Below the pieces are notes generated by a model. That model saw only the letters and a program-made list of their open reading frames with translations, did not search any database and had not been told where the DNA came from. A stretch of 21,157 bases of DNA from a virus: the IMG/VR virus record IMGVR_UViG_3300025450_000146, positions 1 through 21,157 of that record. One strand, written 5' to 3'. Every line of letters starts with the position of its first letter. Positions within the stretch are counted from its first letter, which is position 1. A program made the position numbers and the translations under genes. Shown in pieces: positions 522 through 20,832 of the stretch.

Positions 522-539
522 TATTTATTTTATTTATTT
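522..539 (-). promoter_or_regulatory. Tandem T4-type late promoter boxes for the leftward gene
   Basis: Read on the minus strand, this is a perfect direct repeat of the 9-mer AAATAAATA. Each copy contains AATAAATA, which differs from the T4 late promoter box TATAAATA only in its first base. The proximal copy ends 16 bases before the ATG at 505. T4-like late promoters have only this -10 element and are read by gp55. Assignment rests on the motif, position and the gp55-like gene in the same window. AT-richness makes chance occurrence possible. Confidence 0.55.
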
Positions 540-601: not shown

Positions 602-1408
602 TTGAAAAGCAATTTTATTTTAGATCCGATGTGGATAACCCAAGGCAGCTACCTTGACTCTGAGTATTTTACGTATGTCCTACTTGATGCAAGTCAAAAG
701 TATAAAAAGGAGATAGACGATGACAATATTGACAGGTTCTACGAGGTCATGTTTCACAGTCTGAATCTCAACAACCTTGCAGTGAACGGAAAGCTGTTTA
801 CTCCAAAATTCAAATCGGTTTGGGAAGAGCCTAGGATCATGGAAATAAGGAGCGAATTGCAGAAGATCTATTCGATGCCAGTTGATGTTGCTGAAATATT
901 TAAGAATGCCAATTACATGTTCTTGAGCATGATACTTGAGTATATGAAGATTCACATCGACATTCTAAGTAAGGTAAAGATATTTCACCTAAACAAAAGG
1001 ATCCAGGTGGAACCTGAGATATTCCTGGTAATAAACCATTCAGGTAAGGCTACTTATAAGATCTGGAAGTTTGCCGAAGACAAGAAGAGGGATTTTGGAT
1101 ATTCTTTCACCAAGGTAAAGTCGCTTGAAGTGCCTAATCTTAGGGAAAATGTTATTCGAGATGAAATTGAAAAACTCAACGATCCAAAGTTTGCAAGCAT
1201 GAACGGTAAACGTAACGTCATATTTGCAATAATTGAAAACGATGAAGACGAGAGGAAGGTTGCAAAGTCAGTCAAAGACGTTATACTTTTAAACCGAGGA
1301 ATTGCTAAGTCCGACATGGACTTTTCTCCAGAAATAATCACAGAGCTCTATTCTCTGTTGATGATCGAAAAATTAATGCCGTTTACACTAAATGATTGGA
1401 TCACATAA
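602..1408 (+). CDS. Conserved-type phage protein of unknown function, first gene of plus-strand cassette
   Basis: A 268-residue soluble protein with no cysteines, no signal peptide and no membrane segment. It starts at TTG, supported by AGAAGGA just upstream. The N-terminal half is predicted helical by eye (residues about 18-60 and 80-130, rich in K, E, D, L and Y). The middle has a short beta-like section (EIFLVINHSGKATYKIWKF, about residues 138-156), and the end is helical and acidic. I do not recognise a catalytic motif. Its stop overlaps the start of the metalloprotease gene by 17 bases, so the two are translationally linked and probably act together or at the same time. An inhibitor, chaperone or co-packaged partner of the protease are possibilities, but nothing in the sequence selects one. 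Confidence 0.8.
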   Translation: MKSNFILDPMWITQGSYLDSEYFTYVLLDASQKYKKEIDDDNIDRFYEVMFHSLNLNNLAVNGKLFTPKFKSVWEEPRIMEIRSELQKIYSMPVDVAEIFKNANYMFLSMILEYMKIHIDILSKVKIFHLNKRIQVEPEIFLVINHSGKATYKIWKFAEDKKRDFGYSFTKVKSLEVPNLRENVIRDEIEKLNDPKFASMNGKRNVIFAIIENDEDERKVAKSVKDVILLNRGIAKSDMDFSPEIITELYSLLMIEKLMPFTLNDWIT

Positions 1409-2360
1409 TGCACACACAAACTTTAACGAGTTCATAAATGAAGCTAGGGGATTCTCTAGCTCAGCAAATGAGTATGCTCTACTGGTAAAGAAAAAGGTAG
1501 ACGAGACTCTTGACAAATATTTAGCTTTCAATTTTAAAAAGAGGTTTGTAAATTACTCAGAAGACATTGAGATACCTAACGCGGCTTCTCTTGTTTCACC
1601 AGAGGTAGCAGAGTCCTTTCCGATTGATGAGATAATAGTTAAGTTTAGAATCTCAGCGATGAAAAAGGAGCAGTTCATGAGTCACTCTGCATCGTACCAA
1701 AGAAACTACAATAAGTATAATTTGGTTAAGGGCAAAGGAGAGAAGGTGAATCTTAACATTTTGTGTAAGATCGTTGTCCCATATGAAGGTCTCACTTTTA
1801 ATCGTGAGTATGCTGACCAAATAATGAGCGACATATTTCGACACGAGTTTACTCATGCATTCAATGACTATAAGGATCCCAACTTTGCTAAGGGATATCG
1901 ACTTGGTGTAGTACCGAATATCGCAAAAAGGTTTGATGTGTACCAAGAGTCGGCAGCTCTGCGACTCTTTTTTAATTTGCTCTATGTGCTAACTGATGTT
2001 GAGATCGCTGCAATCTCCGGTGAAAGGGAATCCTTTGCTGATCGTAGCGAATTTCAAAAATACCCAGGAACGCAATGGGCAGATACCGGTAAGATATTTG
2101 ATCCGTATGAGTTTCATGAGATGATCATGTCTGACATAGAGGGTAAACCGTATGCTGGGTATATTGACAATAACTTTGGTGAGTTTTTTGTTGACATCTA
2201 TAACCGTGCAGCACACGCTAAGCGAATGCACAAGGATCCCAAAGTCCTACAATTAAAAAAGGGTTCAAGCTTACTTGATACCCTTAAGTTTTTTACCCCA
2301 TACATTCACGAACAAGCAGTAAAGCTGTGGAAAAATTTAGCTAAAAAGATAGCTAATTAA
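1392..2360 (+). CDS. Putative zinc metalloprotease (HEXXH) with capsid-targeting-like N-terminus
   Basis: A 322-residue protein. Residues 151-155 read HEFTH inside a helix-like stretch (IMSDIFRHEFTHAFNDYK), the classical HEXXH zinc site: H151 and H155 as ligands and E152 as general base. A third ligand is probably one of E204, E211 or E213 in DVEIAAISGERESFAD, about 50-60 residues later, as in gluzincin-type peptidases; which one cannot be decided by eye. Residues 9-19 (TNFNEFINEAR) resemble the T4 internal-protein capsid-targeting propeptide and include an I-x-E cleavage site at 15-17. An in-frame stop at 1389-1391 leaves ATG 1392 as the only good start. It overlaps the preceding gene by 17 bases. 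No secretion signal is visible. The substrate is unknown. Confidence 0.82.
   Translation: MIGSHNAHTNFNEFINEARGFSSSANEYALLVKKKVDETLDKYLAFNFKKRFVNYSEDIEIPNAASLVSPEVAESFPIDEIIVKFRISAMKKEQFMSHSASYQRNYNKYNLVKGKGEKVNLNILCKIVVPYEGLTFNREYADQIMSDIFRHEFTHAFNDYKDPNFAKGYRLGVVPNIAKRFDVYQESAALRLFFNLLYVLTDVEIAAISGERESFADRSEFQKYPGTQWADTGKIFDPYEFHEMIMSDIEGKPYAGYIDNNFGEFFVDIYNRAAHAKRMHKDPKVLQLKKGSSLLDTLKFFTPYIHEQAVKLWKNLAKKIAN
1416..1448 (+). other. Candidate capsid-targeting propeptide in the metalloprotease
   Basis: Encodes residues 9-19, TNFNEFINEAR. From memory, the T4 internal proteins begin MKTYQEFIAEA, and T4 gp21 protease cuts after [L/I]-x-E. The shared pattern is aromatic-x-E-F-I-x-E-A, with I15-N16-E17 as the predicted cleavage site. 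In T4 the signal starts at residue 1, whereas here it follows eight residues, which is the main reservation. Confidence 0.4.
2331..2356 (-). terminator. Candidate intrinsic terminator of the leftward structural operon
   Basis: A perfect 7-bp inverted repeat TTAGCTA / TAGCTAA (2337-2343 and 2350-2356) with a 6-base loop. On the minus strand it is followed at once by ATTTTT. It begins immediately after the tail fibre stop codon, within the 3' end of the convergent metalloprotease gene. The stem has only two G-C pairs, so it would be weak. Downstream on the plus strand there is no T-run, so it should act on leftward transcripts only. Confidence 0.4.
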
Positions 2361-5300
2361 AATAAAGCCTGCCAGCCGGTTCCGTTGTAGCAATAGGCTT
2401 TCTTCGTAGCTGAATTATAATATATCATTCCCTCTGATGGAGACGATGGTGCACTTGCAAGTCCATTTAATTGAAGTACAGAATTTATATGCACTATTGC
2501 ATCTGACGGAACTATGTATAGTGCCTTACCTGTACCCGTTTCAATTGCAGAATAGTTTGAAGCTGGATAAGACCTAAGGCGAAGCATTTCATCTGATTCG
2601 TTATATAATGTAATGTTTGAATTACCTGTACCATGACTAACTATATTAAGACTTGTACTTGCACCACCGCTAGGCGCAGTAATAGTAAATCCAGAATTAT
2701 TATTGGATGTAAAAGTTCCAGTCTGAGTTCTAATGCTAAACTCCTCTCCGCTAACGCTCATTCCTCCAGTAACATTAAGTCCTCCTCCGATATTTACATC
2801 ATTATGAACCGTTAGGTGCTCACCGACACTTAGGTTTTTCATCACGGTAATTTCATCACTTCTTAGAGATTCAATGTGTGCTCCACCTGTGTAGATTCCA
2901 TCAAAATCAAGTGCAACTATTCCTCCTGGATAAGAGTGAACCGGTGTAGTTGTAGCAAACTGATTTGCTACTCCATATATATGTTTCCCAACTATTACAA
3001 ATCTTTCAATTTGAATTGAAAGAAATGATTTTGACCAAATTAGAGTAGGATTTGAAGGATCGGATACGTCTACTTTAAATACAGTAGATGAAAGTCCACT
3101 TAAATTTGCAGTATGAGCACAAAGATAGATACTGTTTCCGAGTTGTTTTATTTGAGTACACTCAGTAAATATTGCATTTGTAGATACTGAAAGACTTGCA
3201 AGTTGAGTGATTGTTCCCAGGTCTTCCGAAAGACTATTGCAGCTTAATGTTACTGTCCAGTGAGTTCCATCATAGACTGAGTATGCAGCATAAACGTTTT
3301 TTCGATTTACTGCAATTCCTCCTTTTTTGCTTAGTTTATTATATAACGTTACACCTACTCCTGTGTCACTTAGTAAGTCTGCAGAATTGGTCTTAAATTG
3401 AATTGCAGATTGAGGATTTTGGGTGAGTCCGCTAGTGTCAAATATTGAAATGTAAACCTTAACTGCACATGTTGAAGCAAGAGTCTGCTCCCAAGTTAAA
3501 GTTGCAGCAATATCATCTGATATATCAAGATCCATAAATGAAGTTGAACTTCCTGTGATTTTATGAGGATATACGGATGCCCATAGATAATATGGAGAAG
3601 AAGGATTTACTGCATATATTGGATTTGTTGGATCAGTAATGTCAATTGGTAAGATTCTACCATCATATACTATACCATCCGGCGATCCTCCAAGTTGAGT
3701 TGGTGATGAAGAATGCGGTAATGCATTTGTAATTAATATTGCATAATTTCCCTTTAATTTAACTCTATACAAACAGTCATATGGTCTATACGCATCGCCA
3801 TATATATCAGTTTCGCCAAGTGAACCGACAACTACTGGTAATCCAGTAGATGCATCAAACTCTACTACTTGAAAGTATACAGGAGTTCCAGGAGTACTAA
3901 ATGCGTAAGATTGATTTGTTGCAATGTACCCAAACTTTCCAGAAATTGCAATATCTGATACTCCTGCACCAACAGGTTGACCTGAATATGCTGGAGAATA
4001 CGGTAAATTTATTGATATTACAGAGGATGGATTATTTGGATCCTGTATGCTATATGAATTTAGATCTCCGCTAAACGTTGAAAGATCTCCGGATAAATTA
4101 GAATCTCCTCCTATTACATAAATTGTATTTCCATAAGTCGCTGCACCATAAGTCGCTGCACCATGTGTACCGTAACCCGCATGTGTACTAGTAATTAGAG
4201 ATGTTGCTCTAGGCGTAGTGTTTCCAAGTTGAACAAAGTTTCCGCCAGTCTGATACGTAGTATCGTTAAGATAAATGGCTTTGCTGTTGCCAACTGCGTC
4301 CAACACTAAATATGACTGGTCAGTTGAGTTATCAACGTATCCGGTATTGATTGTTGGAAAATTTGGAATTGTAAATCCACCTGCAATACCTAAGCTTCCT
4401 CCAGCTGAATGAGTTCGGTCAAATGCAAGTATGCCGTCTGCAATATGAGTTCCGGATGTAAAATATTCGTCTAGTCCATATCTTGAACCTATCACAAAAG
4501 TAGAGCGGTCAGATACTGCTGGGCTTGGAAAATATTTAGGCGATCTAAATTCAAAGACTCCGTTATAACGATTTGTTGTAATTCCTCCATCCGGTATGTC
4601 TAATGAAAATACTTCTCTATATCGATGGTCAAGGTGAGCTGTATGTACACTAGTTGAGTCTCTTTCAAATCGCATCTTAAAGGTCTCATTTACGGTAGTT
4701 AGTACTGGATTTCCAGAACCATCTAAATATAAAACTCCCATTTCCATGTGGTTACGACCGACCGTTTTTTGATCTACCACAATTGAAAGTAATGAATTAT
4801 AGAATGAATCTGGCAAAACCGAAGTGATCGCGCTCTCATTGAAGTTAGTTAAGAACAACACGTCATTTGTGGAAGCACTTGGCGTAATTCCACCTTGTGA
4901 ATTATCGTTAGCTGAATCTGTTCTGTGTCCAAACATGATAAACCTAGTATCAGGTGGAGATCCTATATCTAAACCTCTATTAAAAGGTGAAGGCGTGCTT
5001 GCCAAATAATTATCGATTATTGTAGCAATATTAAAAAGTTGATGCCAGATAGGTGTAGGACTTGCATCGATATACTGCCAAACAGCAAGAGTGTTTGAGT
5101 TTAAGTAGAAGTCACCAACCATTTGTCCGGGAAAAGAAGTTGGTGTAGTCACAGTATCAACATACCAGGCATTTCCTCTAATTCCCTGTGGACCAGTTAG
5201 ACCAGTCGGTCCGGCAGGACCGTCCCCTCCAGTATTACCAATAGGTCCGGGCTCGCCTACTCCCAATTCCAATAACTTATTGAAGTTGAAGTTTATTTTG

Positions 5301-5362
5301 TCTACTGTTATTTCCTGAGCGTCTGCTGGAAACAACTCCTTAAGGTTTATCCTGATTGGCAT
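2357..5362 (-). CDS. Tail fibre/adhesin with collagen-like neck and LVIVD-type beta-propeller
   Basis: A 1001-residue protein starting at ATG 5360-5362, 2 bases after the preceding stop. Residues 1-33 (INLKELFPADAQEITVDKIN) look like a virion attachment segment. Residues 36-63 are nine Gly-X-Y triplets, a collagen-like trimer. About residues 400-800 contain repeated blades: three copies of the LVIVD-like DPxNPxxxI/W element near 440, 573 and 764, a kelch-like YVIGG, and IxGKxxYxA/V segments, suggesting a beta-propeller. About 840-870 has shaft-like strands (NLSVGEHLTVHNDVNIGGG). The end, SPSEGMIYYNSATKKAYCYN followed by GTGWQALF, is typical of phage fibre tips. It is the last gene of the leftward run and the likely receptor-binding protein. 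The target is unknown; no chaperone-type S74 peptidase domain is seen. Confidence 0.85.
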   Translation of the reverse strand: MPIRINLKELFPADAQEITVDKINFNFNKLLELGVGEPGPIGNTGGDGPAGPTGLTGPQGIRGNAWYVDTVTTPTSFPGQMVGDFYLNSNTLAVWQYIDASPTPIWHQLFNIATIIDNYLASTPSPFNRGLDIGSPPDTRFIMFGHRTDSANDNSQGGITPSASTNDVLFLTNFNESAITSVLPDSFYNSLLSIVVDQKTVGRNHMEMGVLYLDGSGNPVLTTVNETFKMRFERDSTSVHTAHLDHRYREVFSLDIPDGGITTNRYNGVFEFRSPKYFPSPAVSDRSTFVIGSRYGLDEYFTSGTHIADGILAFDRTHSAGGSLGIAGGFTIPNFPTINTGYVDNSTDQSYLVLDAVGNSKAIYLNDTTYQTGGNFVQLGNTTPRATSLITSTHAGYGTHGAATYGAATYGNTIYVIGGDSNLSGDLSTFSGDLNSYSIQDPNNPSSVISINLPYSPAYSGQPVGAGVSDIAISGKFGYIATNQSYAFSTPGTPVYFQVVEFDASTGLPVVVGSLGETDIYGDAYRPYDCLYRVKLKGNYAILITNALPHSSSPTQLGGSPDGIVYDGRILPIDITDPTNPIYAVNPSSPYYLWASVYPHKITGSSTSFMDLDISDDIAATLTWEQTLASTCAVKVYISIFDTSGLTQNPQSAIQFKTNSADLLSDTGVGVTLYNKLSKKGGIAVNRKNVYAAYSVYDGTHWTVTLSCNSLSEDLGTITQLASLSVSTNAIFTECTQIKQLGNSIYLCAHTANLSGLSSTVFKVDVSDPSNPTLIWSKSFLSIQIERFVIVGKHIYGVANQFATTTPVHSYPGGIVALDFDGIYTGGAHIESLRSDEITVMKNLSVGEHLTVHNDVNIGGGLNVTGGMSVSGEEFSIRTQTGTFTSNNNSGFTITAPSGGASTSLNIVSHGTGNSNITLYNESDEMLRLRSYPASNYSAIETGTGKALYIVPSDAIVHINSVLQLNGLASAPSSPSEGMIYYNSATKKAYCYNGTGWQALF
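4131..4160 (-). repeat. Perfect 15-bp tandem duplication in tail fibre gene
   Basis: Two identical copies of ccataagtcgctgca, followed by a further ccat. The unit is 15 bases, so the frame is kept and the protein shows GAATYGAATYGN at the edge of the propeller region. This looks like a recent slippage event that lengthens a loop. Confidence 0.85.
5174..5257 (-). repeat. Collagen-like Gly-X-Y region of tail fibre
   Basis: Residues 36-63 contain nine uninterrupted Gly-X-Y triplets (beginning GEPGPIGNT and ending GLTGPQGIRG). Such stretches form triple helices in many phage fibre proteins and imply a trimer. Confidence 0.85.
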
Positions 5363-20200: not shown

Positions 20201-20459
20201 CAAGGGTGGGAAACTTCCAAGGAACTCGCCCATATTGAACGTTTTCTAAAATAAACAGGTTCTCATTATCAAAAAGGTAGTTGGATATGCCCTCAAAATA
20301 GATCTTACCTTCCCATATATTTGTACTTGTGTTGTACTTTAAGTTGAGGTTACTTCCGAATTTATTAAAGAAACTTAGGTTTTGAACTACCATCCAGGGA
20401 AAGCTATTTTTATTATTTATTAGTATCCCTAAATTAGATGCTGTAAATTGAACTTTCAC
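17283..20459 (-). CDS. Baseplate-type structural protein with Ig/PKD-like domains, 1058 residues
   Basis: The start is GTG at 20457-20459 (MKVQFTASNLGILI), overlapping the gp55-like gene by 26 bases; no Shine-Dalgarno is visible and the next in-frame ATG is at residue 23. Residues about 190-270 include RYRTWAQNFGIRFLRED, LNRIRKELLVNK and YIGTYKGLSNFVNMLGYKDV followed by QIKEYW. That pattern recalls the R/GT..GL...G core of tail protein I and T4 gp7-type baseplate wedge proteins. T4 gp7 is of similar length (1032 residues, from memory). Residues about 505-620 and 950-1035 look like Ig/PKD-like domains (GKYRIIAELYDFSGNISTFS and LGTFTLKVEVIDNSG). Residues 831-862 form a Gly/Pro/Ser-rich loop. 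A baseplate wedge role is inferred. Confidence 0.8.
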   Translation of the reverse strand: MKVQFTASNLGILINNKNSFPWMVVQNLSFFNKFGSNLNLKYNTSTNIWEGKIYFEGISNYLFDNENLFILENVQYGRVPWKFPTLGVGEYLEFSWSSNETANEFFLYEVVRDTQLDSEFISKIDSKVVAFSDYSSATSGTLDMGFPLQVNIAFSPTNEVNFQRTLNIFYSSLAGKVQIAQIDFYGEGIEEDVRYRTWAQNFGIRFLREDANILKDYDIKEAIPDYAELNRIRKELLVNKEQVYPYIGTYKGLSNFVNMLGYKDVLQIKEYWQNVNPRSTNTNKLIMVDISDYLNASVIDTLDLVDKNKQIREGKQFKKTEFLALVYEFTKEDGTYDYEGIPNVVETTDFTVNEIFYKLNLLNDKLKLEFLPVNVKIKDIIGEFIYFQRIRIANWNDSDRISTLNFNDHADVAIYPDINHDITLRALDPLFRMQDPGGIDFGVGRINNNGADNPFEFNQRYSTRDEVVKIIDNFKTFYNEIRDQRFPDIGKKLTWEFGDDSERVIGAPVIFTLETGGFTLADLSGVQIGELGASAPGLSPYWTLGNIDFGNYYEVNWRIVQDTPNPYSFSLRGKLIDLYELPHVLPYAGKYRIIAELYDFSGNISTFSRFVTVQSDQKPQIIGITRLEDKFNYQLANLTNVRLQDFGATPFYYPKVNVLNNEDAAVKFDVYKNLLEWIAFYKNRYGMGQNLYDVELYDTDLGQYVAYTDPAQRHPKKLYWGLGNGDMSLTLNDFNGVTLDSLYWLRMADCIYLDDFEAGFYLDPPHPGTIIRMSLYSDYVVPTHSTLDELIGLMNASDHPGINRFNYAIVGDRIHAQANHISKEEYQMLFYPGSASPGGSPYFSPVPSPYTSPGGSPFFPGSMHGDKYTYFLPRKVYSQSVLDYLANLAPMLDIETLFLNAPLRDQLSGAVQDPNYWVEKNYWRFSNDLQNGFLPTFLDQNAFNIADIKMFNESFAIPQESIVFFVVNNLDGKNDFIWTLIDSVTGLEVVRAKSVPFFVWKFKDLGTFTLKVEVIDNSGSHYINEVQNYINVLDKRMYIAGTEQRLNQRKADLIKSGL
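17874..17969 (-). repeat. Gly/Pro/Ser-rich repeat loop in baseplate-type protein
   Basis: Encodes residues 831-862 of the 1058-residue protein. SPGGSPYFSPVPSPYTSPGG then SPFFPGS shows a duplicated SPGGSP[YF]F unit. It is a low-complexity, probably exposed loop, unlike the rest of the protein. Confidence 0.75.
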
Positions 20460-20832
20460 CGCTGGTGCTAAGTGATAGGAATTCTAGCGTCTCGTCTTTA
20501 TCCAGTCCGGTCTTCTTGTGGATCTTTTTCCACTCTTTAGCATACCCATTTTTACATAACTGTGTAAAATAGGCAAAGGCATTGGGTTTTGCAGATCTGG
20601 TCTCGTCAAAACTCTGCCAATACTTAATACAATCGAATATTGCAGACTGTACACAATCTTCCCTGTCGCGATCATCCCTAAAGTAGAGACGAACTACTGC
20701 TCTATTTGCAAGAATAATAAAACTGTCAATCGCAGCAGCGCTTAGCTTCCCTGCCTTTTTACACTTTATTATTTCATCGGTGAAATCGTTGTTATTGATG
20801 TAGTCTTTGTCACCACGTTTTTTTCTAGCCAT
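20434..20832 (-). CDS. 55: T4 gp55-like late-transcription sigma factor
   Basis: A 132-residue protein matching the sigma region 2 core: DREDCVQSAIFDCIKYWQSF (residues 56-75), continuing D76, then NAFAYFTQLCKNGYAKEWKK (84-103). This is the D..Q....K....FD....NAF.YFTQ pattern of gp55 in T4 and T4-like cyanophages. In T4, gp55 binds the host RNA polymerase core and, with gp33 and the gp45 sliding clamp, reads late promoters of the TATAAATA type. The N-terminus is basic (MARKKRGDKD). It is shorter than T4 gp55 (185 residues), mainly at the ends. The C-terminus ends LSTSGESSIYSI; whether it includes a clamp-binding tail cannot be told. The gene follows the RuvC-like gene after 9 bases and overlaps the next gene by 26. 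Confidence 0.85.
   Translation of the reverse strand: MARKKRGDKDYINNNDFTDEIIKCKKAGKLSAAAIDSFIILANRAVVRLYFRDDRDREDCVQSAIFDCIKYWQSFDETRSAKPNAFAYFTQLCKNGYAKEWKKIHKKTGLDKDETLEFLSLSTSGESSIYSI

Follow-up and report, generated by a model that had tools for sequence, protein, structure and literature searches.

An accessory HExxH protein with a T4-like N-terminal tag in a giant Bacteroidota phage: a candidate head-packaged zinc protease

For the T4 internal protein IPIII, ten residues suffice for targeting to the head, residues 4 and 7 mattering for the targeting itself and residues 8 and 10 for processing, and the gp21 cleavage site lies after [L/I]-x-E (PMC9026906). Propeptides resembling this capsid targeting sequence give T4-like phages the means to package a range of proteins (PMC9026906). 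One of the T4 internal proteins, IPI, is injected and inhibits a restriction enzyme (PMC3012670). Head cargo is also described for giant phages: ejection proteins of SPN3US and phiKZ carry N-terminal propeptides, mostly longer than 100 residues, which are cut by the prohead protease after [A/S]-x-E (PMC5694885). As for metallopeptidases, zincin-like enzymes of SprT-like, ArdC-like and group-1 zincin types are noted in jumbo phages; they are patchily distributed, and either an action against host proteins or a part in maturation has been proposed for them (PMC7824862).

The protein considered here is encoded in a 21,157-base virus record, analysed over its whole length (the window), which covers only part of the genome of a T4-like giant Bacteroidota phage. 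It resembles T4 IPI, IPII, IPIII and Alt in its N-terminal [FY]xx[FY]Ix-E tag, placed at the mapped targeting and gp21 cleavage positions, and in belonging to accessory genes with late expression; T4 Alt is likewise an enzyme. It departs from the T4 internal proteins in that the cargo here contains an HExxH domain and the tag begins at residue 11, as against residue 4 in T4, and whereas gp21 and gp22 are separate in T4, the tags here match tandem repeats of a protease-scaffold fusion. With the SPN3US and phiKZ proteins it would share the character of giant-phage head cargo, but their propeptides differ from the present tag in length and cleavage rule, and no comparable HExxH cargo was found in the passages of PMC5694885 consulted. 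The HExxH type and the patchy distribution recall the jumbo-phage zincins, for which, unlike the protein here, the passages of PMC7824862 consulted yielded no head-targeting tag; nor does the window protein match the SprT or ArdC family in sequence. A literature search, not exhaustive, returned no description of a head-packaged, injected phage metalloprotease and no account of a likeness between tag and scaffold repeat.

Since its first residues copy a T4-like head-loading label, we infer that the putative zinc protease is probably loaded into the head, trimmed and carried with the DNA into the next host cell. Taken whole, the proposal of a head-packaged accessory zinc protease, trimmed by an S77 protease and entering the next host, is one to which we give moderate credence.

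Genomic setting and distribution of the protease gene

The large tail genes of the window match those of Tenacibaculum pT24, Chryseobacterium MA9V-1, Flavobacterium MaF61, Prevotella Lak, Sphingomonas PAU and uncultured giant phages, and closer relatives were found through a neighbouring tail gene. The coordinates of the features discussed are collected in Table 1.

Table 1. Features of the window and of related phages (window positions unless a genome is named)
Feature	Position	Strand	Basis or remark
T4-late-promoter-like element, ATAAATAA	578..585	+	upstream of the two-gene unit formed by the 268-aa gene and the protease gene
268-aa gene, function not assigned, TTG start	602..1408	+	homologous genes occur both in relatives that have the protease gene and in ones that lack it
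Tagged HExxH protein ORF, 322 aa, ATG start	1392..2360	+	orthologues at the equivalent site in relatives
Capsid-targeting-like tag FNEFINE, residues 11-17	1422..1442	+	F11, F14, E17, A18 invariant across aligned orthologues
HEFTH zinc-binding motif, residues 151-155	1842..1856	+	H151, E152, H155 invariant; in predicted helix 138-161
Segment E204 to E211, possible site of the third zinc ligand on a gluzincin-like reading	2001..2024	+	both E invariant; predicted helix 202-211
Tail-fibre-like gene, 1001 aa, convergent to the protease gene	2357..5362	-	synteny comparison; the protease gene is inserted between this gene and the 268-aa gene
Late sigma factor, T4 gp55-like	20434..20832	-	phrog_234, E 3e-14
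S77 prohead protease with scaffold-like repeat region, 659 aa	G007:52877-54856	+	PF03420, E 2.5e-12; phrog_207, E 2.5e-38
S77 ORF of MA9V-1, 1347 aa	OR050627.1 126501-130544		19 scattered [IVLA]NE[SA] sites
Second HExxH family members	G007:94026-94772; L024:18026-18772	- (G007)	
NUDIX hydrolase with N-terminal tag	G007:170051-170542; G003:98647-99153; G001:11936-12445		Pfam, E 2e-12

The 268-aa gene and the protease gene share a 17-base overlap and are probably carried on one transcript. The element upstream of the pair, ATAAATAA, closely resembles the T4 late promoter element, TATAAATA, and is enriched upstream of genes about 19-fold in a 207-kb relative (G007) and 16-fold in another (G003). 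In the window, ATAAATA elements stand before late genes on both strands, at 528-537 (-), 17277 (-) and 20420 (-) in addition to the tabulated copy, with a divergent pair between 505 and 602; copies like ATAAATAA also precede tail genes on the opposite strand.

Orthologues with 43-46% identity occupy the same genomic place in four contigs, and three more contigs were added to these. The window and four relatives have the protease gene flanked by the 268-aa gene on one side and the convergent tail-fibre gene on the other, whereas these two neighbours adjoin directly, without it, in L006, L009, L010, L013, L014 and L015, six other relatives. Judged by this distribution, the gene is accessory. Searches of bacterial genomes returned no orthologue, and there was no tblastn match in the named phages, the sole profile match among which (MA9V-1, E 0.005), weak and with no HExxH in the aligned part, was judged spurious. 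ORF152 of the Flavobacterium phage MaF61, annotated "endopeptidase" and lying beside the tail-gene homologue, is unrelated to the protease.

This distribution bears on the strongest of the competing explanations, a maturation protease, which the earlier note had itself put forward as the alternative to an injected enzyme. According to it, the protein would be a head-targeted accessory enzyme, brought by its tag into the prohead core, where it trims structural or core proteins, any injection being incidental. The argument from the tag applies to it equally, and zincins specific to particular groups of jumbo phages are reported to have a possible role in virion maturation (PMC7824862). Because the gene is missing at the junction in six relatives, unlike core maturation genes, it fits an optional cargo more than an essential maturation enzyme, and G007 already has an S77 prohead protease. 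We regard the maturation role as unlikely.

Predicted fold and zinc site

The HEFTH motif and the segment TNFNEFINEAR (residues 9-19), which the earlier note had read from the letters, are both confirmed in the open reading frame. In an alignment of six orthologue sequences with the window protein, to which they are 44-46% identical across the aligned length, H151, E152 and H155 are unchanged, as are F11, F14, E17, A18, R19, G20, F21 and S22. An AlphaFold2 model built from seven sequences (pLDDT 77.6, pTM 0.54) places the conserved HExxH in a helix spanning residues 138-161, and conservation makes E204 or E211 the likely candidate for the third zinc ligand. The confident part of the model starts at about residue 23, and residues 1-21 have pLDDT below 50; the tag, whose burial in a folded core the earlier note had named as a point against targeting, thus lies outside the confident fold.

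Profile searches against Pfam, NCBIfam, PHROG and PADLOC gave no reliable family assignment for the window protein, and in the PDB, where nothing matched at E 0.001, neither the sequence search nor the fold search did so. Because there was no significant match in Pfam, NCBIfam, PHROG or the PDB, we do not file the protein under a named peptidase family. Foldseek against BFVD did retrieve three uncharacterised phage proteins, A0A6J5L9D6 (E 9e-12), A0A6J5L930 (E 1.5e-9) and A0A8D9CA42 (E 2e-8), which have the same predicted fold (TM 0.61-0.65) at 12-17% identity. Three weak leads, each from a single orthologue, were dropped: a DdrA-like anti-restriction protein (E 0.015), a dGTPase (E 0.0055) and a homing endonuclease. 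The last of these arose from residues 22-89 of the L017 orthologue, which match a PADLOC homing-endonuclease model at E 6.7e-5; the window protein has no such match.

The failure to match any known peptidase family, by sequence or by solved fold, is what one would cite for a second competing explanation, in which the protein is packaged by its tag and the HExxH domain, instead of being a protease, has a structural or zinc-dependent binding role or acts as an inhibitor, for example one that blocks a host enzyme, with T4 IPI as the precedent for an injected inhibitor (PMC3012670). Against it, H151, E152 and H155 are all invariant, and among them is the glutamate that catalysis requires but mere binding of zinc does not. 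We consider this explanation improbable, slightly more so than a maturation role, and think it likely that the protein is an active protease.

The N-terminal tag and the scaffold-like repeats

The tag core of the window protein has the form [FY]xx[FY][IVL]xE, with F11, F14, I15 and E17 in the targeting- and cleavage-type positions; in T4 MKTYQEFIAE, the same four positions are Y4, F7, I8 and E10. The T4 start that the earlier note had given for IPIII, MKTYQEFIAEA, proves true of both IPII and IPIII (T4 ORFs 65416-65718 and 65834-66415). Among the orthologues the N-terminal consensus F-x-x-F-[IV]-x-E-A-R-G-F-S is kept; the tag forms the very start of the protein in three of four contigs (MLKNFNQFINEARGFS and similar) and is offset by some 10 residues in the window protein and the G007 orthologue. 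A cut by the prohead protease after E17 and before A18 is likely on this pattern.

We counted the pattern [FY]xx[FY][IVL]xE in the first residues of predicted genes and in the remaining proteome. The pattern was broadened after the data had been seen, its narrower form, [FY]xEFIxE, having been fixed beforehand in the earlier note; gene calling relied on a simple script that took the longest ORF, which leaves part of the start sites approximate. N-terminal matches number 10 in G007 (p 5.7e-5), 11 in G003 (p 2e-12) and 4 in a third relative, G001 (p 3.8e-5), where shuffled N-termini gave 0.74, 0.45 and 0.27, respectively; one of the G007 matches (60581-61942, tag at position 20) looks like chance. 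As a positive control, the scan of T4 gives exactly two N-terminal matches, IPII and IPIII. Other proteins bearing the motif, which had been named in advance as a test, are thus present in these three relatives of the window, itself a fragment. Apart from the tag the carriers are unrelated: they include a NUDIX hydrolase, another HExxH protein and a member of phrog_7595, besides numerous small proteins without an assigned function. The tagged NUDIX hydrolase is possibly a head-packaged nucleotide hydrolase. In G003, a cluster at 116590-124283 (-) comprises six or more genes that are small or of unassigned function, the majority of them tagged, an arrangement that resembles a cargo island.

The second HExxH family (248 aa) has the tag MxKSFxxFINEx, the motif HETNH, invariant E176, E178 and E182 and an invariant DE[VI]ESMVEGMY segment. 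It is far more widespread than the first, with 36 loci (L114-L149) in many phages of the clade, and its model (pLDDT 83.6, pTM 0.83) is of low confidence at residues 1-11. Homology between the two tagged families is unsupported (hhalign probability 9).

The earlier note had listed the lack of a gp21-like prohead protease among the points that would refute it, and one of the S77 type is indeed found in G007, the window genome itself being incomplete, and in named relatives as well. In G007 the major capsid gene (phrog_138, E 4e-33) lies directly downstream, and the S77 product continues into eleven 14-residue repeats of the form [YF]xxY[LIV]AE, such as YSEYIKENLNNSIK and YQNYLAEEIDKGIQ. Across 12 loci (L150-L161) the commonest residues of the repeat read [YF][STQ][EN]Y[LIV]AE-x-L-N-x-[SG]-I; in LR756500, a distant giant phage, the repeats are degenerate yet recognisable. 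Because these protease-fused repeats match the tag, cargo proteins seem to imitate a repeat of the scaffold. When sequence windows were scored with a matrix trained on these repeats alone, the IPII tag of T4 came first and the IPIII tag second among 50,976, and the tag of the G007 protease fourth among 63,163; the tag of the window protein itself came only 29th of 6,898, and the overall N-terminal enrichment was modest (p about 0.002). The discrimination of the matrix is only moderate.

A related observation can be made for MA9V-1, in which 19 of the 60 [IVLA]NE[SA] sites of the proteome fall within the S77 ORF and N-termini such as MKNFFSFINEAN and MKTFFNFVNES share the form of those sites. 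Since the tags and the S77 ORF of this phage share the altered form, tags and scaffold/protease ORF seem to co-vary between lineages. Eight or so MA9V-1 N-termini begin in a manner like F-x-x-[FI][IV]NE[SA]. The more distant relatives PAU and pT24 show no N-terminal enrichment in the pattern scan, so the tag system, as defined, is confined to the closer relatives, together with the variant form in MA9V-1.

That the N-terminal likeness is coincidental or serves another role, the protein being an ordinary cytoplasmic zinc protease made during infection, might be argued from the shortness of the motif and from PAU and pT24, but it is made very improbable by the strong enrichment of the tag on unrelated proteins of close relatives, by the scaffold-repeat match and by an N-terminus strictly conserved in a protein otherwise only about 45% identical.

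Packaging, delivery and possible targets

The capsid-targeting half of the earlier note's reading has accordingly been strengthened, by the tag on unrelated proteins and by the scaffold-repeat match, and the maturation alternative, which it had left standing, is weakened by the accessory distribution but keeps some probability. Of the refuting points that the note had listed, the three checked (sharing of the motif, a gp21-like protease and the place of the tag in the model) all failed to tell against the idea. Packaging of the protein in the head is well supported by these sequence comparisons, and we think it very probable.

Under the head-cargo proposal, the protease would be made late, and its N-terminal F11, F14, I15 and E17 would dock into the core of the prohead, passing for one of the 14-residue repeats that make up the scaffold-like part of the protease fusion. 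A cut after E17 by the gp21-like S77 protease would follow, and this same cut would release the cargo. The mature enzyme, from A18 onward, would remain with the DNA and enter the next host, most likely to cleave a protein of host regulation or defence. Action in the newly infected host is, in our estimate, reasonably probable. The fullest version, in which a head-delivered zinc protease destroys a host defence or control protein at infection and the tags on this protein and some ten other cargo proteins copy the scaffold repeat, is offered more tentatively, as something short of probable.

If it enters along with the DNA, the protease would be at work ahead of any phage gene expression. The tag, for its part, would be a sequence rule that predicts head cargo, including the NUDIX hydrolase and the second HExxH protein, across a group of uncultured giant phages. 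The match between cargo tag and scaffold repeat suggests a testable mechanism for the binding of the T4 capsid targeting sequence to the core and, if true, the copying of a scaffold repeat would account for both the working and the origin of targeting sequences of the T4 type.
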